A DNA stretch of 64,000 bases from contig JAQSWS010000003.1 of the NCBI GenBank assembly GCA_029266495.1, forward strand, positions 1-64,000, given 5' to 3'. Of the stretch, positions 1,537 to 15,454 are shown in pieces. Numbering within the stretch: position 1 is the first letter of the stretch; the number at the start of each line of letters is the position of its first letter. The position numbers were made by a program, and so were the translations under genes. The stretch is from Rariglobus sp. GTDB taxonomy: Bacteria; Verrucomicrobiota; Verrucomicrobiia; Opitutales; Opitutaceae. Below the pieces are notes generated by a model. The model saw only the letters and a list, made by a program, of their open reading frames with translations. It was not told the origin of the DNA and ran no database searches.

Positions 1537-3339
1537 TCAGGCGGAGAGGAACTCCTGGAGTTCTTTGACGGAGTGGCGGCGGGTCCATTGGACGAACGTT
1601 TCACCGGCGGTTTTGCGCTCGTTGTAGGCGCGGAGGATTTTTTCGGTCAGGGCGGGGACTTCCTGGGCGTGGACGCCGCGGAAGACTTCGCGGGCGATGC
1701 CCTGCTCGTGATCCATGCCGCCACCGAGGACGATGTGGAAGCCGTCGGCACCATCGGGTTGCTTGGCCCCGATGAGGCCGATGTCGCCGCAGTAGTGCTG
1801 GGCGCAGCTGTTGGAGCATCCGGTGAAGTGGATGTTGACGGGTTGCTCGACGGAGAGGCTGGACGAGGCGAAGTGCTTGGCGAGCGCGGCGGCGGCCCCC
1901 TTGGTGTCGGCGGCGGCGTATTTGCACCCGCGGCTGCCGGTGCAGGCGACGATGCCGCTGGTCGTGCTCGACGCCTCGGTGGTGAAGCCGAGGTTTTGAA
2001 GCTGGCGGGAGGCGGAGGCGACGAGGGCGTGCGGGACGTGGGGGATGATGACGTTCTGCCAGACGGTGAGGCGGAGTTCGCCCTTGCCGAAGTTGGCGGC
2101 GAGGGTGGCGAGGCCGTGCATCTGCTTCGCGGACATGCGCCCGACGGGAATGCCGACGCCGATGGAGGTGAAACCGCGCTGGGCCTGTTTGTAAGGACCG
2201 ATCCAGCCATGCTTGATGAGCGGGCGGCGGGGCTCGCAGGCGGCAAGAGGAACGCGGACGAGCGGGAAGGATAGTTTCTTTTGGACCTCGTCGAGGAAGC
2301 GGTCGAAACCCCATTTATCGAGGAGGTATTTGAGGCGGGCCTTTTTGCGGTTGGTGCGGTCGCCGTGCTCGACGAAGACGCGGACCATGGCGGCGGAAAG
2401 AGCGGTGGCTTCGGCGGGTTTGATGAGCAGGCCGGTGTCGCGGGCGAAGTCCTGGTGGCCAGTGATGCCGCCGAGGAGGACGCGGAAGTAGAGACCGGGG
2501 GAGACGGAAAGCGCGTTGGGGTCAACGCGCTCCACCCGGGAGAGAGATGCCTCGGTGACGCGGGTGGCGATGAACGCGATGTCGTTGGTGTCGGCGGCGA
2601 CGGTGAGGCTGCCGCCATTGTCGAAGGAGATGTTGAACTTGCGCGGCAGGCCGTAGCAGTCGCGGTGGTTCATGATGTAGTGATGAACGGCCTTGGCGTA
2701 AGGGCGCACGTCGAGGAGCTCGTTGGGATCGAAGCCGCTGTTGGGGGACGCGGTGACGTTGCGGATGTTGTCGGCGCCGGCGCCGCGCGACGTAAGGCCG
2801 AGTTCCTGCACGCGGGTCAGCACGGCGACGAGGTCGCGGGGGCGGAGTTCGCGCAACTGGAGGTTGCCGCGCGTGGTGAGGTCGACCTGGCCGTTGCCGA
2901 GTTCGGCGGCGAGATCGGCGAGTCCGTGAAATTGATGGGAGGTGATTTCGCAGGCGGGGACGCGCAGGCGGATCATGAAACTGTCCTGCGCGGGGGCGAC
3001 GTAGAACAGGCCGTGGGTTTTAAAACGATAGGTGTTCTCGGGGTCGGGAAATTTATCGGCATCCGAATGGGCGAGCAGGCGTTCCCAGGCGTCGAGGGGG
3101 TTTTCGTCGTGCTTCCAGCGCTCTTCCTTGCAGAGGTCGGCGAGCGGGGTGCCGTAAACGACAGGTTCGGAGGCGGGGGCCGGGGCGGCGGAGCCGGATG
3201 GCACGGAGGCCGTCCCTCCCGTGAGGGGGAGCTGGCCGGAAGCGGATACACCCGCCATGAAACCTTGCAGGTATTCCTTTTGCTCGAGCGTGAAGGCCCG
3301 GGCGGAATCGGAGGGAAATGCGGTGGGTGTTTCAGTCAT
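1537..3339 (-). CDS. nirA: NirA-family assimilatory nitrite reductase (siroheme/4Fe-4S)
   Basis: This 600-aa protein would reduce nitrite to ammonium in the cytoplasm with siroheme and a 4Fe-4S cluster. The cluster ligands are visible as C466-x5-C472 and C508-x3-C512 (CTGSRGC and GCSNSC). The substrate-side segments LTTRGNLQLREL and GADNIRNVTASP match NirA/SiR half-domains. Residues around 165-260 and 340-520 form the two sulfite/nitrite reductase repeats. The family also includes sulfite reductases. Nitrite is preferred because nitrate/nitrite transporters and cyanase lie upstream. An Ala/Pro-rich linker near residues 35-60 separates an N-terminal helix, FTLEQKEYLQGFMAGVSA, from the catalytic part. 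That helix resembles the N-terminus of the neighbouring flavoprotein. The upstream 98 bases (3340-3437) contain a weak LysR-like dyad. Confidence 0.92.
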   Translation of the reverse strand: MTETPTAFPSDSARAFTLEQKEYLQGFMAGVSASGQLPLTGGTASVPSGSAAPAPASEPVVYGTPLADLCKEERWKHDENPLDAWERLLAHSDADKFPDPENTYRFKTHGLFYVAPAQDSFMIRLRVPACEITSHQFHGLADLAAELGNGQVDLTTRGNLQLRELRPRDLVAVLTRVQELGLTSRGAGADNIRNVTASPNSGFDPNELLDVRPYAKAVHHYIMNHRDCYGLPRKFNISFDNGGSLTVAADTNDIAFIATRVTEASLSRVERVDPNALSVSPGLYFRVLLGGITGHQDFARDTGLLIKPAEATALSAAMVRVFVEHGDRTNRKKARLKYLLDKWGFDRFLDEVQKKLSFPLVRVPLAACEPRRPLIKHGWIGPYKQAQRGFTSIGVGIPVGRMSAKQMHGLATLAANFGKGELRLTVWQNVIIPHVPHALVASASRQLQNLGFTTEASSTTSGIVACTGSRGCKYAAADTKGAAAALAKHFASSSLSVEQPVNIHFTGCSNSCAQHYCGDIGLIGAKQPDGADGFHIVLGGGMDHEQGIAREVFRGVHAQEVPALTEKILRAYNERKTAGETFVQWTRRHSVKELQEFLSA

Positions 3340-3419
3340 GGAAAACGTAGGTTCAAATCAGCACCGGCGATGCCATCGGCGCCGTTTCTGTAATTAATCC
3401 CGTGAATAGTTTTATGAGT

Positions 3420-3435
3420 GATGATGAATGATCTT
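3420..3435. promoter_or_regulatory. Imperfect LysR-type dyad upstream of nirA
   Basis: GATGA, seven bases, then TCTT: one mismatch from the ATGA-N7-TCAT dyad found at three other promoters of this cluster. Its centre lies about 89 bases upstream of the nirA ATG, close to the spacing seen at the nitrate transporter gene. On its own it would not be convincing. Confidence 0.3.
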
Positions 3436-3437
3436 AA

Positions 3438-5084
3438 TTATTTTTTGTTGAGCAACAGGCCGGCTAAGACGACGACTATCAGGAACAGGACGAAGCTCAG
3501 GTATTTGTAAAATTGCAGGGGATCGCGTTCGAGGAGCGAGGCATCGCGCCGGGTGAAGGCGGTCACGGTTTCCGGATGGTCGAGGTCGTAGGCCATCTCG
3601 GAGAAATGCTGGTAGCGGTGGGCGGGATCGGGCGTGATCGCGCGCAAAATGATCGTTTCCAGCCAGAGGGGAATGGCCGGATTCAACCGGGTGGGGCGTT
3701 TGGGGGGATGATCGAAGCGGGGGGTTTGGAATCGTTCGATTTCGCCGTAGGGGTAAAGCCGGGTAAGTGCTTCGTAGAGAGTAACCCCGATCGAGAAAAT
3801 TTCGGTGCGTTCGGAGAGGGCGGCTCCGTGGAAACGCTCCGGGGCGAGGTAGCTGGGGGTGCCGGCCCGGGAGGTGACAGAAAACACCTCGGCGGTGCTG
3901 CCGAAGTCGATGAGTTGGAACCGCGGAGGGGCGTCGCCGAGGACAAGGACGTTGTCGGGTTTCAAGTCGCCATGCACGAGATCGCGCGAGAGCAGGAACT
4001 GGCCGGCGCGCAGGAGGAAACGGCCCAAATCTGCGGTGTCTTCGGCACGCAGGGGCTGTTTTTTTAATGTCTCTCTCAGGGTGGGGGCATCAACGAACTC
4101 CATCGCGTAGTAACGCAAGGAGCCTTCGTTCGACGTCAGGGCGCGGGCGAAATCGGGGGAGTCGATCCGGGTGGCACGCCACAATTCGCGGATAAAGGCA
4201 TCGGCGCGGACCTCGTCGGTGAGGGCCTCGAGCGGTGGGAATTTAAGCACGTGATCCACGCCGTCGTCACGGCGGGCGAGCCAGACGCGCTCACCGGTCT
4301 GGAGCGAACGCAGGAGTTCATACCGATCGATACGTTCACCGGCGCGGAGCGACGGGAGGACCTCGAGTGGACGGGTGGATTCGGTGCCGCTCCAGCCGCG
4401 TTGATCGATTTCAAGGACAATGGCGCTGGTGTCGTCGCCCAGTTCGGGATGTTCCGCGACCACCTCCAGGGCGGCGGCGACGAGGGTGCGGGCGGCGGCG
4501 CGTCGGGCGAGCAGCGGGGAAAGCGACTCGGGTGAGAGGGCGGTGCTGACGCCGTCGGAGCACAGCACGATGAGATCGCCGTCTTCCAAGTCGCACTCGA
4601 AGAGCGCGGGCTCGACGGAGTTTTCGAGTCCGATGGCACGCGTCAGCACGTGTTGCATGCCGGGTTGGGCGAGCGCGTGGCTTTGGGAAAGCGTGCGGAG
4701 GGCACCCTGGCGCCATAGGTAGACGGGCGAGTCGCCGACATTGAATCCGTAGAGCCGTCCGCCTTCGAGGGCGACGGCGCTCAGGGTGCAGAGCAATTCG
4801 GACGAGTCGTAGAGCAACTGGGATTCCAGGTGGAACACCCGGTTGATCTGCGCGGCGAATTCGCCGAGGGCGCGGCGCGGACTCCACGCCTGCGGCCGGG
4901 CCAGGTAGTAGTCGACCAGCATGTCCACGGCGCGACGGGCGGCGGCTCCGCCGGCTTTGCTGGAGCCGAGGCCGTCCGCGAGCACGGCAACGACACGGCC
5001 GTCGCCTTGATGAACACGAAAGGCATCTTCCGAGGGCGAGGTGGGGTGGCGGGGGGCTCCGTGGGTGGTGGCCTGGACTTTCAT
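3438..5084 (-). CDS. PP2C phosphatase / Ser-Thr protein kinase fusion with C-terminal membrane anchor
   Basis: This 548-aa protein joins two opposing enzymes. Residues 1-228 form a PP2C-type phosphatase with metal-binding acids at D20, D37-G38, D177-G178 and G216-D217-D218. Residues 254-505 form a Hanks-type kinase with lysine K281, a likely helix-C glutamate E300, catalytic loop HGDLKPDN (371-378), DFG (393-395) and APE (414-416). The usual HRD arginine is a glycine (G372) and the glycine-rich loop is degenerate. Residues 528-545 form one hydrophobic segment just before a KK terminus, so both domains should face the cytoplasm. The gene lies between the nitrate transporter and nirA, all on one strand. 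From memory, phosphatase/kinase fusions next to nitrate assimilation genes also occur in Pseudomonas, which suggests post-translational control of nitrate or nitrite use. The substrate is unknown. Confidence 0.93.
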   Translation of the reverse strand: MKVQATTHGAPRHPTSPSEDAFRVHQGDGRVVAVLADGLGSSKAGGAAARRAVDMLVDYYLARPQAWSPRRALGEFAAQINRVFHLESQLLYDSSELLCTLSAVALEGGRLYGFNVGDSPVYLWRQGALRTLSQSHALAQPGMQHVLTRAIGLENSVEPALFECDLEDGDLIVLCSDGVSTALSPESLSPLLARRAAARTLVAAALEVVAEHPELGDDTSAIVLEIDQRGWSGTESTRPLEVLPSLRAGERIDRYELLRSLQTGERVWLARRDDGVDHVLKFPPLEALTDEVRADAFIRELWRATRIDSPDFARALTSNEGSLRYYAMEFVDAPTLRETLKKQPLRAEDTADLGRFLLRAGQFLLSRDLVHGDLKPDNVLVLGDAPPRFQLIDFGSTAEVFSVTSRAGTPSYLAPERFHGAALSERTEIFSIGVTLYEALTRLYPYGEIERFQTPRFDHPPKRPTRLNPAIPLWLETIILRAITPDPAHRYQHFSEMAYDLDHPETVTAFTRRDASLLERDPLQFYKYLSFVLFLIVVVLAGLLLNKK

Positions 5085-5114
5085 GGGTCTCGCCGGCGGA
5101 GGCCGGTCGAACGC

Positions 5115-6320
5115 TTAGATGCGGGCGGCGGCGGTGGCGCCCCAGGTGGTGCGCCAGCGGTGCTTCACGCGGGTGAGGCCGGCGAGGGCGATCAGGCAGA
5201 GGCCGGCGAAGACAATGATCCCGGTGGTGTAGCTGCCGGTGTATTCCTTGGAGGTGCCGAAAAACATACCGAGGATAAAGCCGCCGAGGCCGCCTCCGCA
5301 GCCGACCAGGCCGGTCATGACGCTGATGTCCTTGGCAAAACGCTGGGGCAGGAGCTGGAAAACGGAGCCGTTGCACATGCCGAAGGCGCCCGAGGCGACA
5401 AAGAACGCACCGCCGCAGATCCACAGGTTGCTGGTGAGCGCCGCGCCGACCATGGCGACGGCGGCGATCGAATAAAAAATGCTGAGCGCGCGGATGCCGC
5501 CGAGCTTGTCGGCGAGCGCACCGCCCATGGGTCGTCCGAGGGCGCCGACCAGCGTGCAGAAGGCGGCCATTTCGCCGGCGTGGACGGGGCTGAGGTGGAA
5601 TTGGTCCTTGAAGTAGATCGCGAACGCCGTGGCGAGGCCGACGAAGCCGCCGAAGCTGATGGTGTAGAAAAAGCAGAACCAGTGGGCGTCGCGTTCGGAG
5701 AGCAGGCGGACGTAGTCGATGAGTTTCTTCTTTTTGAATTCGCCGGGGGGCTCCTTCGAAAAAATCACATACAGCACGAACGCGAGGCCGAGGGGGATCA
5801 GGGCAAAGCCAAAGACCGCCTGCCAGCCCCAGGCGGCGGCGATGCGCGGGGCGAGCAGGTGATCGATCACCACGCCGACGTTGCCCGCGCCGGCGAGGCC
5901 GAGCACGACGCCCTGCATGTGGGGCGGATACCAGCGGCCGGACTGGGGGAGCGCGACGGCGAAACTCGCGCCGGCAACGCCGAGAACCACGCCGAGCATC
6001 AGGGCCTGATTAAGCGAGGAGAGTCCGCACTGCCAGGCGACGACCAGACCGGCCATCACGACGAGCTGGGCGATGATGCCGGTGGTCTTTGTGCCAATAC
6101 GATCGACCAGGAGGCTCAAGGCGATGCGCAGCACGGCGCCGGCGAGGATCGGCGTGGAGACCATTAAAAACTTTTGCTGGGCGTTGAGCCCGAGCTGGGG
6201 TGCGATCAGCGCGCCGAGGGCGCCGAGGATCGTCCACACCATGAAGCTGACGTCGAAATAAAGGAAGGAGGTGGCCAGAGTGGGCCAGTGTCCGGATTGC
6301 TTAAGCTGGGCGAAGTTCAT
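5115..6320 (-). CDS. NarK/NasA-type nitrate/nitrite transporter (MFS)
   Basis: This 401-aa polytopic protein of the NNP branch of the major facilitator superfamily moves nitrate (or nitrite) across the inner membrane. About twelve hydrophobic segments can be seen. The family signature is present in the first half as GVAGASFAVALPQSGRWYP followed by GLAGAGNVGVV, and in the second half as a glycine-rich GLVGCGGGLGGFILG. The central loop is basic (EFKKKKLIDY). It precedes the phosphatase/kinase gene by 30 bases and is probably cotranscribed with it. A LysR-like dyad lies 82 bases upstream of its start at 6394-6410. Import for assimilation is inferred from the neighbours. Nitrite export is possible but less likely. 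Confidence 0.93.
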   Translation of the reverse strand: MNFAQLKQSGHWPTLATSFLYFDVSFMVWTILGALGALIAPQLGLNAQQKFLMVSTPILAGAVLRIALSLLVDRIGTKTTGIIAQLVVMAGLVVAWQCGLSSLNQALMLGVVLGVAGASFAVALPQSGRWYPPHMQGVVLGLAGAGNVGVVIDHLLAPRIAAAWGWQAVFGFALIPLGLAFVLYVIFSKEPPGEFKKKKLIDYVRLLSERDAHWFCFFYTISFGGFVGLATAFAIYFKDQFHLSPVHAGEMAAFCTLVGALGRPMGGALADKLGGIRALSIFYSIAAVAMVGAALTSNLWICGGAFFVASGAFGMCNGSVFQLLPQRFAKDISVMTGLVGCGGGLGGFILGMFFGTSKEYTGSYTTGIIVFAGLCLIALAGLTRVKHRWRTTWGATAAARI

Positions 6321-6393
6321 GTGAGCGGCGTCAGAGAGGACGTGAACCGCCCGGAGGTCTATGAAACAAACGGCGAGTCTTTTTTAGAGAAAC

Positions 6394-6410
6394 GATGAAT
6401 TATTCTCATG
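6394..6410. promoter_or_regulatory. LysR-type operator candidate upstream of the nitrate transporter
   Basis: GATGA-ATTATTC-TCATG contains the exact dyad ATGA-N7-TCAT and so a T-N11-A LysR box. The centre is about 82 bases upstream of the transporter ATG. The same dyad occurs at 7846-7860 and next to the LysR gene at 15503-15519. Confidence 0.55.
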
Positions 6411-6452
6411 TTGCAGATGGGGGCTGGCTTAAGTCCTGCGCCGGGGGCTGGT

Positions 6453-6492
6453 AAAAAAAAGCCCCACGCCAAGAGAAGCTCCTGGGTGGGGC
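6453..6492 (-). terminator. Intrinsic terminator after the 6512 porin gene
   Basis: Stem GCCCCAC (6461-6467) pairs with GTGGGGC (6486-6492), and eight A bases on the plus strand (6453-6460) become a U tract in minus-strand RNA. It lies just past the stop at 6512, so it separates the porin from the downstream nitrate transporter gene. That transporter therefore probably has its own promoter. Confidence 0.85.
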
Positions 6493-6511
6493 GGTGAACA
6501 GGGGGATTTTT

Positions 6512-7792
6512 TTAGAACGTGTAGTCGGCCTGGAGCCAGAACTTGGTGCGGTCGGCATTGGACGCGACGCCGGGGACGACGGCTTCGTCGCTCCAGTATT
6601 TGGCGGCCTTGGCGGTGAGGCTCAGTTCCTTGGTGACCTTGTAGGTCGCCATGACATCGAACTCCTGGCCGATCTGGGACGGACCCTCTTCGGTGCCGAA
6701 GAAGTGATAGAAGGCGAGGAGGTTCACTTTACCCGGGAGGGTGGTGCCGTATTTGACGTAGGTGTCCGTCAGGCCGGCGGCGGGCGTGGCGAGGAAGACG
6801 TCGGCCCAGCCGTTGTGGGCGTGGAGCGTGGCGATCGGGGTTTTGAAGCCAACGAGTCCGTTGTCGGAACCGAGGACCTCGTAACCGGCGGCGAGGGTGT
6901 TGCCCTTGGCGACCAGGCCGAGTTCGGCGAGGTAGTAGTCGGCATCGTAGCTGACGGGATTGTCGCCGTAGTCGGACTGGGTGGCATATTCGAGGCGGTA
7001 GGTGCCCTTGATGTCCTTGGTGAGCGCGGGGGTGCCGGCGAGGCTCAGGCCGTAGGTCTGGCTGGAAGCGCCGAGGGCGCCGGCGGTGCCCAAGCCGTCG
7101 GCGTTGAAGTCGAGCAGATAGGCGTAGCCGGTCAGGGTGCCGATGGGGAAGCCGGCGTAGCTGGCGTTGATGACATGGGAATCGGAGTCCCAATCAGGCT
7201 GACTCGAGGCGGCGGCAGGGCCGGTTTCGTTGTCGAAGATGCGATTGACGTGATCGAGATAGGCGTAGGTGAGGGTGGTCTTCTCGAAAGATTTATCCTG
7301 GACGACGAAGGCGTCGAAGGTCTGGTCGTTCTGACGCCAGCCGACGTCGCCGATGAAGCGGGCGTTATCGAGAATGATCTTCTGGCGACCGAGGGTGCCC
7401 TTGGTTTTTTCGAAGGTGTAGGCGACCCAGGCCTGGTTGAGATTATAGACCTCGGGATCGGCGATGACGGCGCGACCGGCGGAATTGGTGCCGGTGCCAT
7501 CGAAGTAGTCGTTGATGAGCGGGGTCACGGCCTCGCCCTCGATCATGGCCTGAAAGCCCTTGTAGAGCCGGGTGGTGTAACCGAGGCGAAGACGCGCGGT
7601 GAGGGCCTCGGCGTCGGCGACGGCGTCCTGGTCAACGAACTCGTAGCGGAGGCGGGCGTTGATGGAGACTTTGCCTTGGGTGAGGGCGTCGGTGAACGAG
7701 GCGGGAGCCTCGGATTTGGCGGCCGGCTGGGCCGCGAGAGAGGCGGCGCCGAGCAGGGCGATGAGGGCGATGGAGGGGAGGTGCGACTGCAT
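6512..7792 (-). CDS. Outer-membrane beta-barrel porin-like protein (alginate-export-type fold)
   Basis: This 426-aa secreted protein has a signal peptide ending near residue 21 (AALGAASLAAQ-like region) and alternating hydrophobic and aromatic residues typical of a beta barrel. It ends in a phenylalanine after an aromatic strand (FWLQADYTF), the usual outer-membrane insertion signal. Segments such as INARLRYEFVDQD and TLGRQKIILDNARFIGD resemble the alginate-export or OprD-like barrel families annotated in Bacteroidota and Verrucomicrobiota. It lies between cyanase and the nitrate transporter, so entry of nitrate, nitrite or cyanate through the outer membrane is a reasonable inference. The solute cannot be read from the sequence. 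A LysR-like dyad lies 61 bases upstream and a strong terminator follows. Confidence 0.8.
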   Translation of the reverse strand: MQSHLPSIALIALLGAASLAAQPAAKSEAPASFTDALTQGKVSINARLRYEFVDQDAVADAEALTARLRLGYTTRLYKGFQAMIEGEAVTPLINDYFDGTGTNSAGRAVIADPEVYNLNQAWVAYTFEKTKGTLGRQKIILDNARFIGDVGWRQNDQTFDAFVVQDKSFEKTTLTYAYLDHVNRIFDNETGPAAASSQPDWDSDSHVINASYAGFPIGTLTGYAYLLDFNADGLGTAGALGASSQTYGLSLAGTPALTKDIKGTYRLEYATQSDYGDNPVSYDADYYLAELGLVAKGNTLAAGYEVLGSDNGLVGFKTPIATLHAHNGWADVFLATPAAGLTDTYVKYGTTLPGKVNLLAFYHFFGTEEGPSQIGQEFDVMATYKVTKELSLTAKAAKYWSDEAVVPGVASNADRTKFWLQADYTF

Positions 7793-7885: not shown

Positions 7886-8329
7886 CTACCAGGTTTTGTA
7901 GGCGAGGAACTTTCCGCACATCTCGATTTTCACGCGGTCGCCCTTGGGGTCCTCGACGCGGTCGATGTGCATGGTGAAGTCGATGGCGCTCATGATGCCG
8001 GCGCCGAATTTTTCCTCGATGAGGGCCTTCAGGGTGGGGCCGTAAACGTAGAGGATTTCCTGGAAGCGGTATTGGAGCGGTTCCTTGGTGAGGGTGGAGG
8101 CGGCTTCACCTTTGTTGGCAAATTCGGTGAGTGCGAAGGCGATGTCGGGCCCGAGTTCGAGCGCGGTGGCCACACGTGCGGCGGCATCGGGCGGAAGGGC
8201 GTTTTCGCCGAGGCAGGCGGAGGTGGTGTAGACTTCGGAGAGGCCGGCGGCCTGGGCGATGGCGGCCCAGGTGAGCCGGCGTTCCGCTTTTGCGGCGAGG
8301 AGGGTGGCGGTGAGTGCGGACTTGGTCAT
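7886..8329 (-). CDS. cynS: Cyanase (cyanate hydratase)
   Basis: This 147-aa cytoplasmic enzyme converts cyanate and bicarbonate to ammonium and carbon dioxide (via carbamate). An upstream in-frame start would add 45 residues unlike the family, so the ATG at 8329 is chosen. It gives the normal cyanase length. Residues of the known E. coli active site are conserved: Arg and Glu in YRFQE, and Ser in GAGIMSAIDF. The segment VYGPTLKALIEEKFG is the core family block. The N-terminal half carries the HTH-like fold (LTWAAIAQAAGLSEVY). The gene lies between two barrel genes in a nitrate block. NrtABC-type ABC transporters are known to have close cyanate-transporting relatives, so the transporter upstream may carry cyanate as well as nitrate. 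Confidence 0.96.
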   Translation of the reverse strand: MTKSALTATLLAAKAERRLTWAAIAQAAGLSEVYTTSACLGENALPPDAAARVATALELGPDIAFALTEFANKGEAASTLTKEPLQYRFQEILYVYGPTLKALIEEKFGAGIMSAIDFTMHIDRVEDPKGDRVKIEMCGKFLAYKTW

Positions 8330-8394: not shown

Positions 8395-10023
8395 TCAGAG
8401 GTTGAGCGTCAGCTGGAGATAGGCGTAGCTGGCATCCTTGGAGGAGCCAGGGGCGTTTTCCCACGATTGCTTGATGTAATCGCCGCGGAAGTAGTGGGAG
8501 ATGCCGGCTTCAATGTTGAAGTAAGGAACCGGGGAGTAGCCGATGATGAGATCGATTTCCTGCCCGAGTTCGGAGCTGTTGCCGGAGTTGATGCCGTAGC
8601 CCGTGCCGTTGGTGGTGCCGGTGCCGCCGGCGAGGACCTGGGTGCCGCCGCCGCGGGGAACGCCGCCGACGTTATACCAGTAGTCGTCGGTGCTCGCGAG
8701 GCGCTGGAGGTGGGCTTCCAGGGCAACCCGGAGTTTGGGGGTGGGCTTCACTTCCAAGGCGAGGCGGATGTCGTGCAGATTCTGCAGACTGTTCAAATCC
8801 ATGTAGCCATAAAAGAAGTGGGTCGTGGCGAACTGGTTTTGGAACGTGTTGGACACGCCGTCATTGGCGTCGCGGTCACCCGAGGCGTAGCTGTAGGTGA
8901 GCGAGAGGCGGGGCTGCCAGGCGAGATCGCTCCAGGTGTAACCGAGCTGGGCGATGGCGGCGTAGGCCTCCTGGTCGAGTTCGGGTGCGCTGCTCAGGGC
9001 GAGAGGCGTGTTGACCGGGGTGACGGCGGTGCCGTTGGGGTTGCGGCTGTTGATGGAGCCGAACTGGTGCATGGCTTCCGCGGTGTAGTCCCAGTTGCCA
9101 TAGGCGTTGGGCTTGGACTTCACGCGCAGGCCGATGGTGTAAAGATCCTGGATGTAGGGCTGGCGGAAGGGAGCGGCGACGCCGGCCCAGTCTTCCTCGG
9201 TGACGCTGGCGGCGTCCACGTTGCGGCTGAACAGATAGGTTTCGACGATCTGCTTTCGGCTGATGCCGGGGATCTTGGTGAGGTTGAAATACGCACCCGA
9301 GAACTTGTCGTTGTCGTAGTGGGATTCGTCGAAGTTGCGGTTGTCGTGATAGACGACGCCGCCGGTGAACAGATCCAGGCCGCCGAAGGCATTTTGATAG
9401 CGGACCTTGCCGGCATCGAAGCTGCGGGCGTTGTTATTCCAGAGGAAGTGGCCCACCTGGCGCTGGTCGCCGTAGGCGAGTTCCTGGCGTCCGATCTTGG
9501 CGGACAAGGGGAACTCCTTGTGATTGCCGACGAAAACATACGCCTGATGGAGGCTGAGGTCGTAGTTGTTTTCCTGTTCGCCGTCGCCGGCGACCACGCC
9601 GGGCGTGGCAGGGTTGACGTTGGTCGTGCCGTTGTTGCCGCGTTCGTCGTCAAAGGAGAAGTTGGAGCGGCCCTGGACGAAGAGCTGATACCATTTGTCG
9701 GTATAGCCGATGCGGGGCATGATGCGCAGCAGGCCGTAGGTGTTGTTGTTGTCGAACAGGTCGGCGTTGCCCAGGGGCGGGCGGCCGCCGGAGAAGTCGC
9801 GATTCTGACCGGCGGAGGTGAAGCCGGCGTCGTCCTTGGCCTCGAGGCGGGCGCGGACGTTCACGCCGATGTCCCATTGCGCGGCGTAGGGGTCGATGGC
9901 GCGAAGTTTGAAATTGGTGTAGCCCGGGTAGGCCGGGGGGGGCGGGGGATAGAACTGGGCCGAGGCCGAGGCGGCCGCGGCGGCGAAGCCGAGCGTGGCG
10001 ATTACGGAGTGGAGGCGATTCAT
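8395..10023 (-). CDS. Outer-membrane beta-barrel protein, alginate-export-like
   Basis: This 542-aa secreted protein has a signal peptide ending at about ASASAQF. A Pro/Tyr-rich stretch (residues 24-36) is followed by a long barrel region rich in aromatic strands such as QLFVQGRSNFSFDDERG and SAKIGRQELAYGDQRQVG. The latter resembles the alginate-export porin family. It ends in YAYLQLTLNL, a typical last strand, though the final residue is Leu rather than Phe. It lies 52 bases after the second ATPase gene of the ABC operon and is probably the last gene of that transcript, closed by the terminator at 8343-8380. It is longer than and clearly different from the 6512 barrel. A role in passing nitrate or cyanate through the outer membrane is inferred from location only. 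Confidence 0.8.
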   Translation of the reverse strand: MNRLHSVIATLGFAAAAASASAQFYPPPPPAYPGYTNFKLRAIDPYAAQWDIGVNVRARLEAKDDAGFTSAGQNRDFSGGRPPLGNADLFDNNNTYGLLRIMPRIGYTDKWYQLFVQGRSNFSFDDERGNNGTTNVNPATPGVVAGDGEQENNYDLSLHQAYVFVGNHKEFPLSAKIGRQELAYGDQRQVGHFLWNNNARSFDAGKVRYQNAFGGLDLFTGGVVYHDNRNFDESHYDNDKFSGAYFNLTKIPGISRKQIVETYLFSRNVDAASVTEEDWAGVAAPFRQPYIQDLYTIGLRVKSKPNAYGNWDYTAEAMHQFGSINSRNPNGTAVTPVNTPLALSSAPELDQEAYAAIAQLGYTWSDLAWQPRLSLTYSYASGDRDANDGVSNTFQNQFATTHFFYGYMDLNSLQNLHDIRLALEVKPTPKLRVALEAHLQRLASTDDYWYNVGGVPRGGGTQVLAGGTGTTNGTGYGINSGNSSELGQEIDLIIGYSPVPYFNIEAGISHYFRGDYIKQSWENAPGSSKDASYAYLQLTLNL

Positions 10024-10075: not shown

Positions 10076-10900
10076 TCAGGCGTTGACGAGCACGGGCGCG
10101 GCCTGGTTGACGCGGGCGGGGCGGTGGTGGGAACGCTCGTTGAGGAAGTGGAGGAGATACTCGCGGAGACGGTAATACTCGGGGTCCTCGAGGAGCTGCT
10201 TGCGCGTGCGCGGGCGGGGAAAATTGATTTCGAGGATGTCCCCGACGGTGGCCTCGGGGCCGTCGGTCATCATCACGACCCGGTCTGAAAGGTAGAGGGC
10301 TTCGTCAACGTCGTGGGTGACCATCAGCGCGGTCTTCTGGTCGCGTTGCCAGAGATCGAGGAGGACGTCCTGCAACTCGTATTTGGTGAGGGAGTCCAGC
10401 ATGCCGAAGGGCTCGTCGAGGAGCAGCATCTTGGGCGAGAGTGCGAACGCGCGGGCGATGCCGCAGCGCTGCCGCATGCCTTGCGAGAGTTCGCCGGGGC
10501 GCTTGTCCATCGCGTCGCCGAGGCCGACGATCGTGAGGTAGTATTCGGCGATCTGGCGCCGCTCGAGTTTCGAGGCGGTGTAGTAGGCCTGGTCCACGCC
10601 CAGCATGACGTTTTCAAAGGCGGTGAACCAGGGGAGGAGGCAGGGAGCCTGGAACACGACGCCGCGGTCGGGCCCGGCGCCGACGACTTCCTTGCCGGCG
10701 AGGATGATGCCGCCGGAGGAGGACTCGGTGAGGCCGGCGACCATCGAGAGCACGGTGGATTTTCCGCAACCGGAGTGGCCGATGAGGGTGATGAACTCGC
10801 CTTTCTTCACGCCGAGGTCGAAGTCGCGCACCACGGTGAGCGGGCCCTTGGGCGTGGGGAAGGTTTTGACGAGTTGGGAGATTTCGAGAAATTTGCTCAT
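10076..10900 (-). CDS. NrtD-type ABC transporter ATPase
   Basis: This 274-aa ATP-binding subunit belongs to a nitrate/sulfonate/taurine-type importer. Walker A is GHSGCGKS (41-48), the signature loop is LSQGMRQR, and Walker B is [12 protein letters not shown] with a following switch histidine in [10 protein letters not shown]. The signature has Q instead of the usual second G (LSGGQ-type). It lacks the C-terminal NrtA-like domain that cyanobacterial NrtC carries. It starts 15 bases after the first ATPase gene, so the two probably pair as a heterodimer under the NrtB-like permease. The substrate could be nitrate, nitrite or cyanate. Confidence 0.92.
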
Positions 10901-10915
10901 GACGTTCGGGTGCGC

Positions 10916-11806
10916 TCAGGCGATCTGGATGCTTTCGCGTTTTTCCTCGTCGGGGCGGCGGGGCGGACGGTTGACGCGAGGGGCGTCGAGGTCCTCGGGG
11001 AGGATTTCCGGGCGTATCAATTTCTTGGTGACGGAGGTCTTGCGGGAGGCGTTGAAGCCGAGGAGCTGATTGGTCACGAGGGCGCGAAGACGCTTGAACT
11101 CGGGATCGTGGTTGAGGGCGGTGCGGTCGCGGGGACGGGCGAGCGAGACGGGGACCGATTCACCGAGGGTCGCGCCGGGCCCGATCGTGAGGGGGATGAT
11201 GCGGTCGGCGAGGAGCAGCGCCTCGTCCACGGAGTTGGTGATGAGGATGACCGTTTTGCGCTCGGTCTGCCAGATGCTGGCGATCTCGTCCTGGAGGGTG
11301 GCGCGGGTGAGGGCGTCGAGGGCGCCAAGGGGCTCGTCGAGGAGGAGGATGCGCGGGTTGATGGCGAGGGTGCGGGCGACGGAGACGCGCTGGCGCATGC
11401 CGCCGGAGAGCTGTTTGGGCAGGCGGTCCTTGGCGTGGGAGAGCTTGACCATCGCGATGTATTTATCGACGTGGGTGCGGCGCCTGGCGGCGTCCCATTG
11501 CGGGAAGACCTGGTCCACCGCGAGGGCGATGTTTTCGTAAACCGACAGCCAGGGAAGCAGGCTGTAGTTTTGGAAAACCAGGCCGCGGTCGGGACCGGGG
11601 CCGGTGACGATGTCGCCTTCCAGGCTGACTTCGCCCGAGTCGGGCTTGATCAGGCCGGCGATGAGCGAGATGAGCGTGGTTTTGCCCTGGCCGGAGTAGC
11701 CGACGATGGCGACAAATTCGCCGTCCGCGATGGACAGGTTCACGCCCGACAGCACGCTGTGGCTGCCGAAGCTCTTGGAGACGTTTTTGAGTTCGAGGAA
11801 GGCCAT
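10916..11806 (-). CDS. NrtD/NrtC-type ABC transporter ATPase
   Basis: This 296-aa ATPase has Walker A GYSGQGKTT (36-44), signature LSGGMRQR and Walker B RILLLDEPLGALD. The position normally holding the switch histidine reads LITNSVDEAL, so the His is replaced by Asn. The neighbouring ATPase keeps it. In ABC heterodimers this often marks one degenerate ATP site, which is inference here. A basic tail follows residue 250 (KTSVTKKLIRPEI and RPPRRPDEEKRES) in place of the binding-protein domain of cyanobacterial NrtC. It lies 5 bases after the permease gene and 15 bases before the second ATPase gene, in one operon. Confidence 0.9.
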   Translation of the reverse strand: MAFLELKNVSKSFGSHSVLSGVNLSIADGEFVAIVGYSGQGKTTLISLIAGLIKPDSGEVSLEGDIVTGPGPDRGLVFQNYSLLPWLSVYENIALAVDQVFPQWDAARRRTHVDKYIAMVKLSHAKDRLPKQLSGGMRQRVSVARTLAINPRILLLDEPLGALDALTRATLQDEIASIWQTERKTVILITNSVDEALLLADRIIPLTIGPGATLGESVPVSLARPRDRTALNHDPEFKRLRALVTNQLLGFNASRKTSVTKKLIRPEILPEDLDAPRVNRPPRRPDEEKRESIQIA

Positions 11807-11811
11807 GGGGA

Positions 11812-12792
11812 TCAGCTGATGGCCTTGAAGCGGGCCTCGACGAGGGACATGAGGCGATCGAGGATGAGACCGACGATGCCGATGGTCAGGATGGAGAAGA
11901 TGATGTGCTCATAGATGAGCGCGTTGTATTCCTGCCAGAGGAAGCCGCCGGCGCCGGGGCGGCCGGTGAGCATCTCGGCGGCAACGATGGCCAGCCAGGC
12001 GATGCCGAGGCTCAGGCGGAAGCCGGTGAACATGTAGGGCAGGGTGGCCGGGATGAGGATCTTGGTGAGCATCTTCCAGCGGGAGAGCTTCAGAACGCGA
12101 CCGACGTTCAGGTAATCCTGCGGGACGGCGCGCACGCCGACGGCGGTGTTGAGGACGGTCGGCCACATGCCGCAGAGGGCGATGGTGAAGAGGGCGGCGT
12201 AGGTGCCGGCCTCGGGGCCGGCGCGCATGAAGAGCACGAGGCCGAGGGGGAGCCAGGCGAGTGGCGAGACGGGGCGCAGCACCTGGATGAGCGGGTCGAA
12301 CATCTTGGTGAAGGTGGGCGAGAGGCCGAGGAAGAAGCCGACGGGCACGCCGATGATAAGGGCGATGGCGTAGCCCTGTGCGACGAGCACCAATGAATAC
12401 CAGGTGAAGCGAAGGATGCCCTGGTCCATCTCGCCGCGCTTGGCCCACGGATCGACGATGTAGGGTTTGCTGGAGTCCCACGTCTCGACGACGTTGGGGA
12501 GATCGGGGATGAGGCCGATGCGTTTTTCTTCAAAGGAGCTGCTGATCGCTTCCCAGACATCGGGACGAAGGCGTTTGGTCTCGGTGGCTTCGATCTCGCC
12601 GGACTTCAGTTTGGGCGCCAGGGCCTTCCACTGGGCTTCGCCTTCCGGCAGGGCGGCGACGGTGGTCCCGAGCTCCGCCATTCCGGTCGTGAGGCTGTAA
12701 ACCTTTTTGCCGCCGACGATGTGCCAGGCAGCGAGTATGATGAGGACACCGACAACGGGCAGGATAAGCCAATCGAACTTGAATTTATTCAT
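11812..12792 (-). CDS. NrtB-like ABC transporter permease
   Basis: This 326-aa inner-membrane permease belongs to a nitrate/cyanate-type importer. One N-terminal membrane segment (about 10-27) is followed by a roughly 100-residue hydrophilic region before the five-segment permease core. That region is longer than in simple SsuC-type permeases. The cytoplasmic EAA-type loop is recognisable around KILIPATLPYMFTGFRLS. Its start codon overlaps the stop of the 82-aa gene upstream by four bases (ATGA), which suggests translational coupling. ATPase genes follow after 5 bases. Confidence 0.9.
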   Translation of the reverse strand: MNKFKFDWLILPVVGVLIILAAWHIVGGKKVYSLTTGMAELGTTVAALPEGEAQWKALAPKLKSGEIEATETKRLRPDVWEAISSSFEEKRIGLIPDLPNVVETWDSSKPYIVDPWAKRGEMDQGILRFTWYSLVLVAQGYAIALIIGVPVGFFLGLSPTFTKMFDPLIQVLRPVSPLAWLPLGLVLFMRAGPEAGTYAALFTIALCGMWPTVLNTAVGVRAVPQDYLNVGRVLKLSRWKMLTKILIPATLPYMFTGFRLSLGIAWLAIVAAEMLTGRPGAGGFLWQEYNALIYEHIIFSILTIGIVGLILDRLMSLVEARFKAIS

Positions 12793-13037
12793 GAGACGGA
12801 AGTGGAGCGAAGTGCGGCGGCGCGGGTGGCGGCGGCGGAAGTGAAGGCGATGAGAAAAGAGAGGGCGGGGGACAGGATGGATTTGGCGACGACGGCGACG
12901 GACACGGCACCGGCCAGCCAGTGGTCGCCCTGGTTGAGGGCGACCTGCACGAAGCCCACCGGGAGGCCCAGCCTGGCCGCGCGCCTCCAGACGGAGGCGT
13001 CGCGGCAGATGGACCAGAACCGTGAGCGCGCGCTCAT
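12789..13037 (-). CDS. Small membrane protein inside the nrt-type operon
   Basis: This 82-aa protein is not recognised. It has a basic N-terminus (RSRFWSICRDASVWRRAARLG), a short hydrophobic patch near residues 24-34, the motif LNQGDHW, and one clear membrane segment at about residues 41-68. It probably sits in the inner membrane. It starts 21 bases after the nrtA-like stop, and its TGA overlaps the permease ATG by four bases. That tight fit in the operon is the main reason to call it a real gene. It could be an accessory subunit of the transporter. There is no direct evidence for its function. Confidence 0.65.
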   Translation of the reverse strand: MSARSRFWSICRDASVWRRAARLGLPVGFVQVALNQGDHWLAGAVSVAVVAKSILSPALSFLIAFTSAAATRAAALRSTSVS

Positions 13038-13058
13038 GGCGGGAGTCGTCCGGCTGGA

Positions 13059-14348
13059 TCAGCCCTTCAGGTTTTTAACCGCGAAGCCCTTGGCGTAGGC
13101 CTCGGGGTTGGACGGGTCGAAGGTCACGCCGTCGAAGAGGGTCTCGGGCGTATTGTCGATGCCACCGGAGGTGACGCCGATTTCCTTCATGGCTTCCTCA
13201 TAGATATCGTTGCGGATAACGCGCTTGTTGAGCGCGGCGTAGTCGGGTGCGCCGGTGACCATGCCCCAGCGGCGGAACTGCGAGAGGAACCACGTGCCGT
13301 GCTTGGGCTGCGGGTAGTTGCAGTTGTTCTTGCTGAAGTGCATCGGGGAGGCGTCCTTGACCTTGCGGCCGTCACCGTAGTCGAGGTCGCCGAGGAGGCG
13401 GCCGAGGATGATGTCCGGGGCGCAGTTGATGTAGGTGGCCTTGGATACAAGCTGGCACTGTTCGGGGCGGTTGCCGAGGTCGTCGAGCCAGACGCTGGCT
13501 TCGTGGAGGGCCTTGAGGACGGCCTTGACGGTCTTCGGGTTCTTGTTGGCGAACTCCTCGGTGAAGGCGCAGACTTTTTCGGGGTGGTCCTTCCAGATGT
13601 CCTGGGTGGTGACGGCGGTGTAGCCGATCTTGTCGGCGATGGCGCGGGCGCCCCAGGGCTCGCCTACGCAGAAGCCGTCCATCTTGCCGATCTTCATGTT
13701 GGCAACCATCTGGGCGGGCGGAACGACGATGAGGTTGACGTCCTTGTCGGGATTGATGCCGCCGGCCGCGAGGTAGTAGCGGATCCACATATTGTGGGTG
13801 CCGGGCGGGAAGGTCATGGCGAAGGTGAGCGGTTCGCCGAGGCTGTTGGCCTGGTCGACGAAGGGCTTGAGGGCTTTCGGGTCGGCGCCGATCTTGCCCT
13901 TCCACTCGGTCTTGAGGGTGATGGCCTGGCCGTTGCGATTGAGGACCCACGGAATGATCATCGGCTTCTTGGGCGAGCCGGCGAGGCCCATGGTCGAGGC
14001 GAACGGCATGCCGTAGAGCATGTGGGTGGCCTGGATGGAGCCGGTGGAAAGGTTATCGCGGATGGCGGCCCAGTTGGCGCCCTTGGTCACCTTGGAGTTG
14101 ATGCCATATTTCTTGAACAGGCCTTTTTCGTGGGCGATGACGATGGGCGAGCAGTCGGTCAGCGCGATCATGCCGAAGTTGATGTCGGTGGTCTCGGGCG
14201 CTTCCGAGGCGCCGCTTTCGGGGGCGGACCATCCCTTGGGGAGATTGGAGAGGAGGGCGGCGGCACCGAGGCCTTTGGCGGCGGTGGAGAGAAATGCGCG
14301 ACGATTAAGACGGCGCAGGTCGAAGGAATCAGGCGTGGGCGAGTTCAT
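13059..14348 (-). CDS. NrtA-like substrate-binding protein with Tat signal
   Basis: This 429-aa periplasmic binding protein of the NrtA/CmpA family captures nitrate, nitrite, cyanate or bicarbonate for the ABC transporter. The N-terminus has a twin-arginine type signal (LNRRAFLSTAAKGLG, R16-R17) followed by a hydrophobic stretch, so folded export by Tat is likely. No lipobox cysteine is seen, unlike cyanobacterial NrtA. Family blocks include FGMIALTDCSPIVIAHEKGL, VVPPAQMVANMKIGKMDGFC and GEPWGARAI. The start overlaps the end of the cytosolic homologue by 20 bases. Nitrate is the favoured ligand because of nirA, but the bicarbonate (CmpA) and cyanate branches use the same fold. Confidence 0.92.
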   Translation of the reverse strand: MNSPTPDSFDLRRLNRRAFLSTAAKGLGAAALLSNLPKGWSAPESGASEAPETTDINFGMIALTDCSPIVIAHEKGLFKKYGINSKVTKGANWAAIRDNLSTGSIQATHMLYGMPFASTMGLAGSPKKPMIIPWVLNRNGQAITLKTEWKGKIGADPKALKPFVDQANSLGEPLTFAMTFPPGTHNMWIRYYLAAGGINPDKDVNLIVVPPAQMVANMKIGKMDGFCVGEPWGARAIADKIGYTAVTTQDIWKDHPEKVCAFTEEFANKNPKTVKAVLKALHEASVWLDDLGNRPEQCQLVSKATYINCAPDIILGRLLGDLDYGDGRKVKDASPMHFSKNNCNYPQPKHGTWFLSQFRRWGMVTGAPDYAALNKRVIRNDIYEEAMKEIGVTSGGIDNTPETLFDGVTFDPSNPEAYAKGFAVKNLKG

Positions 14349-15417
14349 GGTTGTTACGTTTGCGGGAGGATTTCTGGGCGAGAGTGTAGAGGTCCGAACG
14401 AAAGGTGCGGGTGGCGAGGTCGGCCGGGATGACGGTGCCTGCGGGCAGGAAGCGGTGGCGGTTGAACCCTTCGATCAGCCAGGTGGCCTTGGCAGAGGTG
14501 GGGTCGTTGGCGCCGTTGCGGTGATAGTGGATGAAGTTGTCGGCCGGCACCGTGTTGCCGTGTCCGTAATCGAAGGGACCGACGAGGCTCGCCTGGATGA
14601 CGCGCGCGGGGACGTTCATGTATTCCCGGCGGGCGAGGAGATTGCAGAGCTCGGGGCGGAAGGCGGGGTCGTCGCAGAGGGCGGCGGCTTCGGAAAGCGC
14701 GGCGACCATTGCGAGGTGTTCGCCGGAACGGCTTTCGGCGAAATCGCGGCGGACCATCAAGACTTTTTCGGCGTGGCCGGGGGCGAGATCCGGGCTGATG
14801 GCGGGGCACCAGCCGATTTTTTCACGCACGGCGAGGGAGTTCCACGGATCGCCGACGCAGTAGCCATCGATGGTGCCGGCCGCGAGGTTGCGGAAAAGCT
14901 GGGGGGGCGGCACGACGACGACGCGCACATCCTTCTCGGGGTCGACGCCGGCGCTGCGCAGCCAGTCGCATACGTGAATGCGGTGCGAGGAGTGCGCGAA
15001 GACCACGCCGAAAACATAGGTGCGTTCATGGCGGGACCGAATGATCTCGTCGCGCATGGTGGAGGCGTCGCGGACGCCGCGGTTCCACAGGTCTTCGGAA
15101 AGAGTGATGCAGTTGCCGTTGGTGTTGAGAACAAATGCGGTGAGGCATTCGCAGGGCAGGCAGTTGAGGCCGAGATTGGTGCTGATGACCATCGCGCCGA
15201 GCGCATGCGAGGCATCGAGTTCGCGATGAATGATCTTGTCGCGGATGCTTGCCCAGCCGACTTCGCGGCTGAGTTCGATGTTCAGGCCGTGCTTTTGGAA
15301 GAAACCATTTTCATGCGCGACGATAATGGGCGCGGCGTCATTGAGCGCGATGAAGCCAATGCGCAGAGGGCGCTGCGTCGAGGGACTGGCGGTGGCTTTT
15401 CGGTTGAGCGAAGACAT
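14329..15417 (-). CDS. Cytosolic NrtA/NasS-like protein (possible nitrate sensor)
   Basis: This 362-aa homologue of NrtA has no signal peptide and so should stay in the cytoplasm, as NasS sensors do. The ATG at 15417 is preferred. An in-frame TTG at 15447 would add ten residues, but an AAGGA lies ten bases before the ATG. Family blocks are IGFIALNDAAPIIVAHENGF, VVVPPPQLFRNLAAGTIDGY and VGDPWN. It is unusual in having a cysteine cluster, C86-x2-C89-x-C91 with C103, at the ligand-side segment where exported NrtA proteins have none. NasS normally works with the ANTAR antiterminator NasT, and no nasT gene is visible in the window. It is the first gene of the minus-strand block, 20 bases overlapping nrtA. 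Confidence 0.85.
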   Translation of the reverse strand: MSSLNRKATASPSTQRPLRIGFIALNDAAPIIVAHENGFFQKHGLNIELSREVGWASIRDKIIHRELDASHALGAMVISTNLGLNCLPCECLTAFVLNTNGNCITLSEDLWNRGVRDASTMRDEIIRSRHERTYVFGVVFAHSSHRIHVCDWLRSAGVDPEKDVRVVVVPPPQLFRNLAAGTIDGYCVGDPWNSLAVREKIGWCPAISPDLAPGHAEKVLMVRRDFAESRSGEHLAMVAALSEAAALCDDPAFRPELCNLLARREYMNVPARVIQASLVGPFDYGHGNTVPADNFIHYHRNGANDPTSAKATWLIEGFNRHRFLPAGTVIPADLATRTFRSDLYTLAQKSSRKRNNHELAHA

Positions 15418-15438
15418 GCGTTGGATGTCCTTGCCTCT

Positions 15439-15454
15439 AGCCTCCAACGTGCCA
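15439..15454 (-). promoter_or_regulatory. Sigma-54-like -24/-12 candidate
   Basis: On the minus strand TGGCACG-TTGG-AGGCT matches the full -24 box and keeps the GC of the -12 element of sigma-54 promoters, with two mismatches. A start from it would fall near 15428, only about 11 bases before the chosen ATG and within the presumed ribosome site. That argues against it, so it is recorded as weak. Confidence 0.25.

Follow-up and report, generated by a model that had tools for sequence, protein, structure and literature searches.

A phosphatase-kinase fusion encoded behind a nitrate transporter gene and its pairing with transporters in Verrucomicrobiota, Campylobacterota and Pseudomonadota

In the 64,000-nucleotide stretch of Rariglobus sp. 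DNA analysed here (the window), a single protein chain comprising a PP2C phosphatase, a Hanks-type kinase, and a C-terminal membrane anchor is encoded directly behind a gene for a NarK-family nitrate transporter. Because its relatives almost always sit right behind a gene for a nitrate, nitrite, or similar transporter, the fusion is probably a dedicated transporter on/off switch; the specific reading preferred here, a bifunctional Ser/Thr kinase/phosphatase that is anchored in the membrane, serves the upstream transporter, and reversibly switches NarK, is given about an even chance of being correct. The directly observed parts of this model are the architecture, the intact catalytic residues of both domains, the pairing with transporters across phyla, and the clades that track transporter type. 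Fused PP2C-kinase proteins of Pseudomonas and Deinococcus were already noted, as uncharacterised, in 2005 (PMC1262709), and in Pseudomonas the gene ppkB lies between nasA and nirB/nasD (PMC3596284, PMC6954232), with PA1782 counted as a third putative Ser/Thr kinase in P. aeruginosa (PMC8560001). No experiment on the function of ppkB or PA1782 was found in the open literature.

The relevant features of the window, all on the minus strand, are the following.

3438..5084, minus strand: PpkB-like PP2C-Hanks kinase fusion with C-terminal membrane anchor (ATG-start ORF, 548 aa)
4500..5042, minus strand: PP2C phosphatase domain, aa 15-195, with D20, D37, D118, and D177 (Pfam PP2C_2)
3735..4268, minus strand: Hanks-type kinase domain, aa 273-450 (Pfam Pkinase and motif survey)
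3441..3533, minus strand: juxtamembrane LERDPLQFYK (aa 518-527) and C-terminal helix 522-547 (motif/hydrophobicity survey, DSSP of the AlphaFold2 model)
5115..6320, minus strand: NarK-family nitrate/nitrite MFS transporter, short type, 401 aa, the proposed partner (MFS_1, TIGR00886)
5118..5159, minus strand: NarK C-terminal tail RWRTTWGATAAARI, aa 388-401, with T391/T392, candidate phosphorylation or docking site
1537..3339, minus strand: NirA-family ferredoxin nitrite reductase, downstream of the fusion (NF007126, 826 bits, above cut-off)
7886..8329, minus strand: cyanase CynS (TIGR00673/NF002773, above cut-off)
10076..15447, minus strand: NrtABC-type nitrate ABC transporter (TIGR01184, TIGR01183, NMT1_2)
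10076-10900 and 10916-11806, minus strand: NrtC
11812-12792, minus strand: NrtB
13059-14348 and 14329-15447, minus strand: NrtA-like

Within the fusion, Pfam matches PP2C_2 at 72 bits (cut-off 24) and Pkinase at 73.7 bits (cut-off 31.7), and an AlphaFold2 model built from a 28-sequence alignment (mean pLDDT 89.5) shows both catalytic domains and, as the last helix, residues 522-547. The reading frame, Pfam, and the model agree with the initial annotation of this DNA, which had described a PP2C and a Hanks kinase in one chain with a single C-terminal anchor, lying between NarK and NirA. The nearest solved folds to the PP2C half are tPphA and PstP (Foldseek of the model), and the kinase half is modelled with a normal kinase fold, closest to PknB. 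The fifth PP2C metal acid, D217, lies just past the end of the Pfam domain. The kinase half retains the catalytic Lys (K281), the alphaC Glu (E300), H371-G372-D373, N378, D393-F-G395, and the APE motif at 414-416, so that the HxD Asp, the Asn, and the DFG Asp of Hanks kinases are all present, and the arginine of an RD kinase is replaced, HGD standing for HRD. Lys281, Asp373, Asn378, the DFG motif, and HGD had all been named correctly from the sequence, and the loss of the GxGxxG glycine-rich loop, which here reads LLRSLQTGERVWLA, had been overlooked. Because this loop is gone, though fold and catalytic residues are kept, the protein is at most an atypical Hanks kinase. PASTA repeats gave no match in the fusion (Pfam), and the chain stops at the membrane helix. 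The order of an N-terminal PP2C and a C-terminal Hanks kinase in one chain is that of the class of about 540-600 aa, and LLERDPLQFYK ahead of the single C-terminal helix agrees with the family motif [LI]ER[ND]P..[FV][WY], found ahead of the membrane helix; with the gene also placed directly downstream of NarK, membership in the PpkB family (PGAP 'bifunctional protein-serine/threonine kinase/phosphatase') is supported.

The genomic setting of the fusion was surveyed across bacteria. Of 240 evenly sampled Verrucomicrobiota genomes, 8 have the full fusion, 16 have NarK, and 7 have both (Fisher p ~1e-8 for co-occurrence); in all seven genomes holding both, and hence for 7/8 fusions, the fusion stands directly behind NarK, and the eighth, from a genome without NarK, lies 70 bp behind an APC-superfamily permease and near kdpD. 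Among 40 Pseudomonas species, 34 carry the fusion and 35 a NasA-type NarK, and every one of the 34 fusions follows NasA/NarK directly, with gaps of 3-206 bp. A hand count in 20 further genomes, which were picked for holding a fusion, their second copies not being picked, placed 27 of 30 full fusions directly downstream, on the same strand, of NarK (19) or a formate/nitrite channel, FNT (8), the exceptions being those of G303 and G285 and one divergent case in G293. False (shadow) ORFs ahead of some GC-rich fusions were resolved by hand check and Pfam. The initial annotation had pointed to a similar fusion linked to nitrate genes in Pseudomonas, had supposed that the association may be wide, and had proposed a survey of genomes; the linkage is indeed found elsewhere, and it is stronger than had been stated. 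A few fusions, among them those at L071, L095, and L100, lack an adjacent transporter. The fusions at L095:8340-11617 and L100:507-3625 are related, gammaproteobacterial, and adjoined by a divergent VanZ-like gene; they are possibly relocated copies. Since the same NarK is present and the fusion absent in G015 (Opitutaceae) and Pseudomonas G326, the fusion is dispensable for the nitrate pathway in some species; in G015 (L210:5877-10210) the order is NarK-FNT-NirA, an FNT gene filling the slot used by the fusion in relatives. In Pseudomonas G316 (L212:4447-6966), which also carries two fusions, a PP2C-like gene and a kinase gene lie side by side unfused, and the glycine loop is intact there (GKGGMAEVF).

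Nine of the 20 further genomes carry two transporter-fusion pairs, each fusion having its own transporter. L076 and L110 represent one NarK-fusion pair plus one FNT-fusion pair each, L093 one pair of each type, and L108 two NarK-fusion pairs; two Pseudomonas species (L207, L208) have a second fusion, behind FNT, besides the NarK-fusion. Such gene pairing is compatible with the transporter either as substrate of the fusion or as a sensor feeding the kinase, and is no proof of the former. In the latter case, NarK or FNT would act as a transceptor and supply the input, and the fusion would relay nitrate/nitrite flux by phosphorylating some soluble protein, for instance PII, a metabolic enzyme, or a transcription factor. 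The position data fit this account equally well, and the unrelated folds of the partners (MFS, FNT, APC) could mean one output with different inputs; however, comparison of the loci revealed no second soluble neighbour that is conserved, and genomes with two pairs would feed two signals into one pathway. We consider it unlikely, although it is the strongest of the alternatives.

For a broader view of the family, 113 non-redundant fusions were collected from genome contigs, plasmids, and whole genomes; they come from Verrucomicrobiota, Campylobacterota, and Pseudomonadota. The PP2C acids D20, D37, D118, D177, and D217, whose completeness in the window protein had been noted initially, are invariant in all 113, as are the kinase residues K281, E300, H371, D373, N378, and D393, and because both active sites are kept throughout, both enzymes are probably under selection. 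At the middle position of HxD, 50 fusions have Q, 43 have G, 18 have R, and 2 have A, and the entire set shows a degenerate glycine loop; since the arginine is mostly lost and the loop degenerate throughout, a kinase without RD activation-loop control is, by these motifs, the family norm and not an oddity of the window. A hydrophobic C-terminal segment is present in 103/113 fusions. The same features, namely family-wide loss of the glycine loop and HGD, HQD, or HAD in 95/113, could indicate that the kinase half is a degenerate pseudokinase sensing ATP or a signal, with PP2C as the sole working enzyme, removing phosphate that other kinases have added. This appears improbable, given that pseudokinases usually lose residues such as K281, E300, D373, N378, and D393, all invariant here, and that the modelled fold is that of a normal kinase.

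With regard to the neighbours, the fusion, NarK, and NirA of the window share a same-strand run with two porin-like genes, the cyanase, and NrtABC, the gaps being 30 bp from the end of NarK to the fusion and 98 bp from the fusion to NirA; a promoter/terminator scan of window positions 3300-6600 gave nothing above chance. The window NarK scores 255 bits against TIGR00886, under the cut-off of 311.7, and is 83-85% identical to the fusion-adjacent NarK of four relatives. The two porin-like outer-membrane proteins (Alginate_exp family; 6512-7792 and 8395-10023) are kept in relatives and may be nitrate or cyanate porins. A cyanase gene is found close to the fusion at four loci, from two phyla (window 7886-8329, L028, L116, and L128), and directly adjoins it at two of them, on Sulfitobacter and Psychrobacter plasmids.

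In the 52 loci with at least 6 kb of flank on both sides of the fusion, NarK or FNT lies within 1 kb in 44 and an APC permease in 3 more, whereas a nitrate/nitrite reductase of any kind lies within 6 kb in 33 and NirA or NirB in 26, the reductase counts being lower bounds obtained by BLAST with few references. The constant neighbour of the fusion is the transporter, not the reductases. FNT-fusions with no annotated reductase within the surrounding 5 kb occur in Methylobacterium nodulans, Azospirillum lipoferum, Cupriavidus pinatubonensis, and Psychrobacter plasmids, and a transporter-fusion pair without an annotated reductase nearby is also found on a Thioclava plasmid. NarK, NirA, and the flavoprotein had initially been named as candidate targets; NarK is favoured by these data, while NirA and the flavoprotein, as less constant neighbours, are disfavoured and were rejected as conserved partners (33/52 against 44/52). 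Regulation of nitrite reductase (NirA/NirB) or the flavoprotein by the fusion, which its position directly between NarK and NirA and the 26/52 loci would suggest, is accordingly a still less probable account than a pseudokinase, for a reductase is missing beside FNT- and APC-linked fusions and at several plasmid loci, and genomes with two pairs duplicate the fusion together with the transporter.

On a tree of the 113 fusions, the partner labels need 15 changes, compared with 57.9 when shuffled; the fusions linked to APC fall into a single group, and two changes are needed for those linked to FNT. Verrucomicrobial long-NarK fusions (L030, L131, L132, L134) cluster with gammaproteobacterial long-NarK fusions and not with the short-NarK fusions of Opitutaceae. 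Fusion lineages track transporter type rather than organism. Distances between fusions correlate with those between NarKs within the two NarK types (Mantel r 0.78 and 0.46), which fits inheritance as a unit and by itself does not establish contact; common ancestry or transfer of both genes together would produce it as well. HRD-type PP2C-kinase fusions of a sister clade lie 50-86 bp behind an APC-superfamily permease of 636-712 aa (L031:8753-12536, L032:8563-12328, L033:693-4639, L129:5986-9984), and no nitrate genes were detected near these fusions. The nitrate assimilation setting of the initial annotation is too narrow for the family, nitrite/formate channels and, in this related HRD clade, the APC permease being partners too. 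At two of the four APC-linked loci, kdpA or kdpD is nearby, and OmpR-type response regulators are near the other two. Identification of the APC partner as a KimA-type potassium importer was rejected, as PDB sequence searches returned only weak amino acid transporter matches. The least probable account, a generic regulator that has no particular transporter as its partner and travels as a passenger of the nitrate regulon and is co-transferred with nas/nar genes, draws on the mobility implied by a patchy distribution (8/240 Verrucomicrobiota) and presence on plasmids, and has against it the clades that sort by transporter type, not organism, and the APC-linked clade, near which no nitrate genes were detected. 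The wider proposal that the fusions form a family of transporter-dedicated switches in at least three phyla, each a single protein with both opposing enzymes, each lineage specialised for short NarK, long NarK, FNT, or APC, and serving to turn solute uptake on and off rapidly, is put forward tentatively, with slightly less than an even chance of being right.

In the dedicated-switch reading, the C-terminal helix and the LER[ND]P motif would hold both catalytic domains at the cytoplasmic face beside NarK, where the kinase domain would phosphorylate NarK, with Thr391/392 of the RWRTTWG tail as candidate residues, and the PP2C domain would take the phosphate off. The kinase/phosphatase balance, set by a nitrogen or energy signal, would then open or close nitrate uptake faster than gene regulation. 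The contact between the proteins, the phosphorylation of NarK and where it occurs, whether it opens or closes uptake, and the signal are the parts of this model that we infer. NarK residues 390-401 are predicted to be disordered, and the RWRTTWG tail of short-type NarKs is presumably cytoplasmic, as judged from general 12-helix MFS topology. T391 is found in 48/49 and T392 in 49/49 linked or nearby short-type NarKs, and this conserved motif in a disordered tail looks like a candidate docking or phosphorylation site. The two threonines occur in 98% and 100% of linked NarKs versus 50% and 30% of unlinked rows, which are mostly distant. Because close unlinked NarKs, including that of the fusion-less G015, all keep RTTWG, the contrast is one of subfamily level, a fusion-specific phosphosite was rejected, and the tail is neither diagnostic nor proof of a substrate. 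The THx[RK]T tail of linked FNTs was also set aside as a specific site, the comparison FNTs without a fusion being distant.

Several known systems resemble parts of this arrangement. PpkB of Pseudomonas (PA1782; PputUW4_03641 in nasST-nasA-ppkB-nasDEC-cobA) shares the PP2C-kinase fusion directly downstream of NasA/NarK; the window fusion, 32% identical to a Pseudomonas fluvialis PpkB member and only distantly related to the Pseudomonas group on the tree, differs from those loci in its HGD motif and in a downstream ferredoxin-type NirA instead of NirBD. Short-NarK fusions of Campylobacterota and other Verrucomicrobiota fall in the same clade as the window fusion (starred support) and share its HGD kinase and transporter subfamily, whereas their reductase gene order varies and some Campylobacterota have an extra gene between NarK and the fusion. 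The kinases PknB, Stk1, and StkP and the phosphatases Stp1, PstP, and tPphA have the kinase and PP2C folds in common with the fusion but are encoded by separate genes, while the fusion is one non-RD chain without PASTA repeats or a glycine loop. In cyanobacteria, fast ammonium inhibition of nitrate uptake through NrtABCD is exerted post-translationally by PII, the role proposed here for the fusion; however, PII binds the ABC subunits NrtC/NrtD, and no transporter-linked kinase is involved (PMC6603209). NarK has no NrtC/NrtD-like ABC regulatory subunit, which may leave room for a kinase-based switch. The UW4 genome paper likens ppkB to kinase control of plant and yeast nitrate transporters, citing NprI-Ynt1 of Hansenula and CIPK8 nitrate signalling of Arabidopsis (PMC3596284), in which a protein kinase is likewise tied to a nitrate transporter; unlike the fusion, these eukaryotic kinases stand alone, with no phosphatase fused to them. 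As far as the open literature shows, the FNT and APC partners, the pattern of one fusion per transporter, and the clade-by-transporter structure are new.

If the model is true, nitrate/nitrite uptake in Pseudomonas, Campylobacterota, and Verrucomicrobiota would be gated after translation, and the fusions would represent a bacterial counterpart of eukaryotic transporter phosphorylation as well as a possible answer to how NarK-type nitrate uptake is shut off in bacteria without NrtC/PII control. If the pairing is read correctly, a self-contained writer-eraser protein would switch individual transporters, and, by the pairing rule, the preceding gene would predict the partner for many 'bifunctional kinase/phosphatase' genes that are so far uncharacterised.
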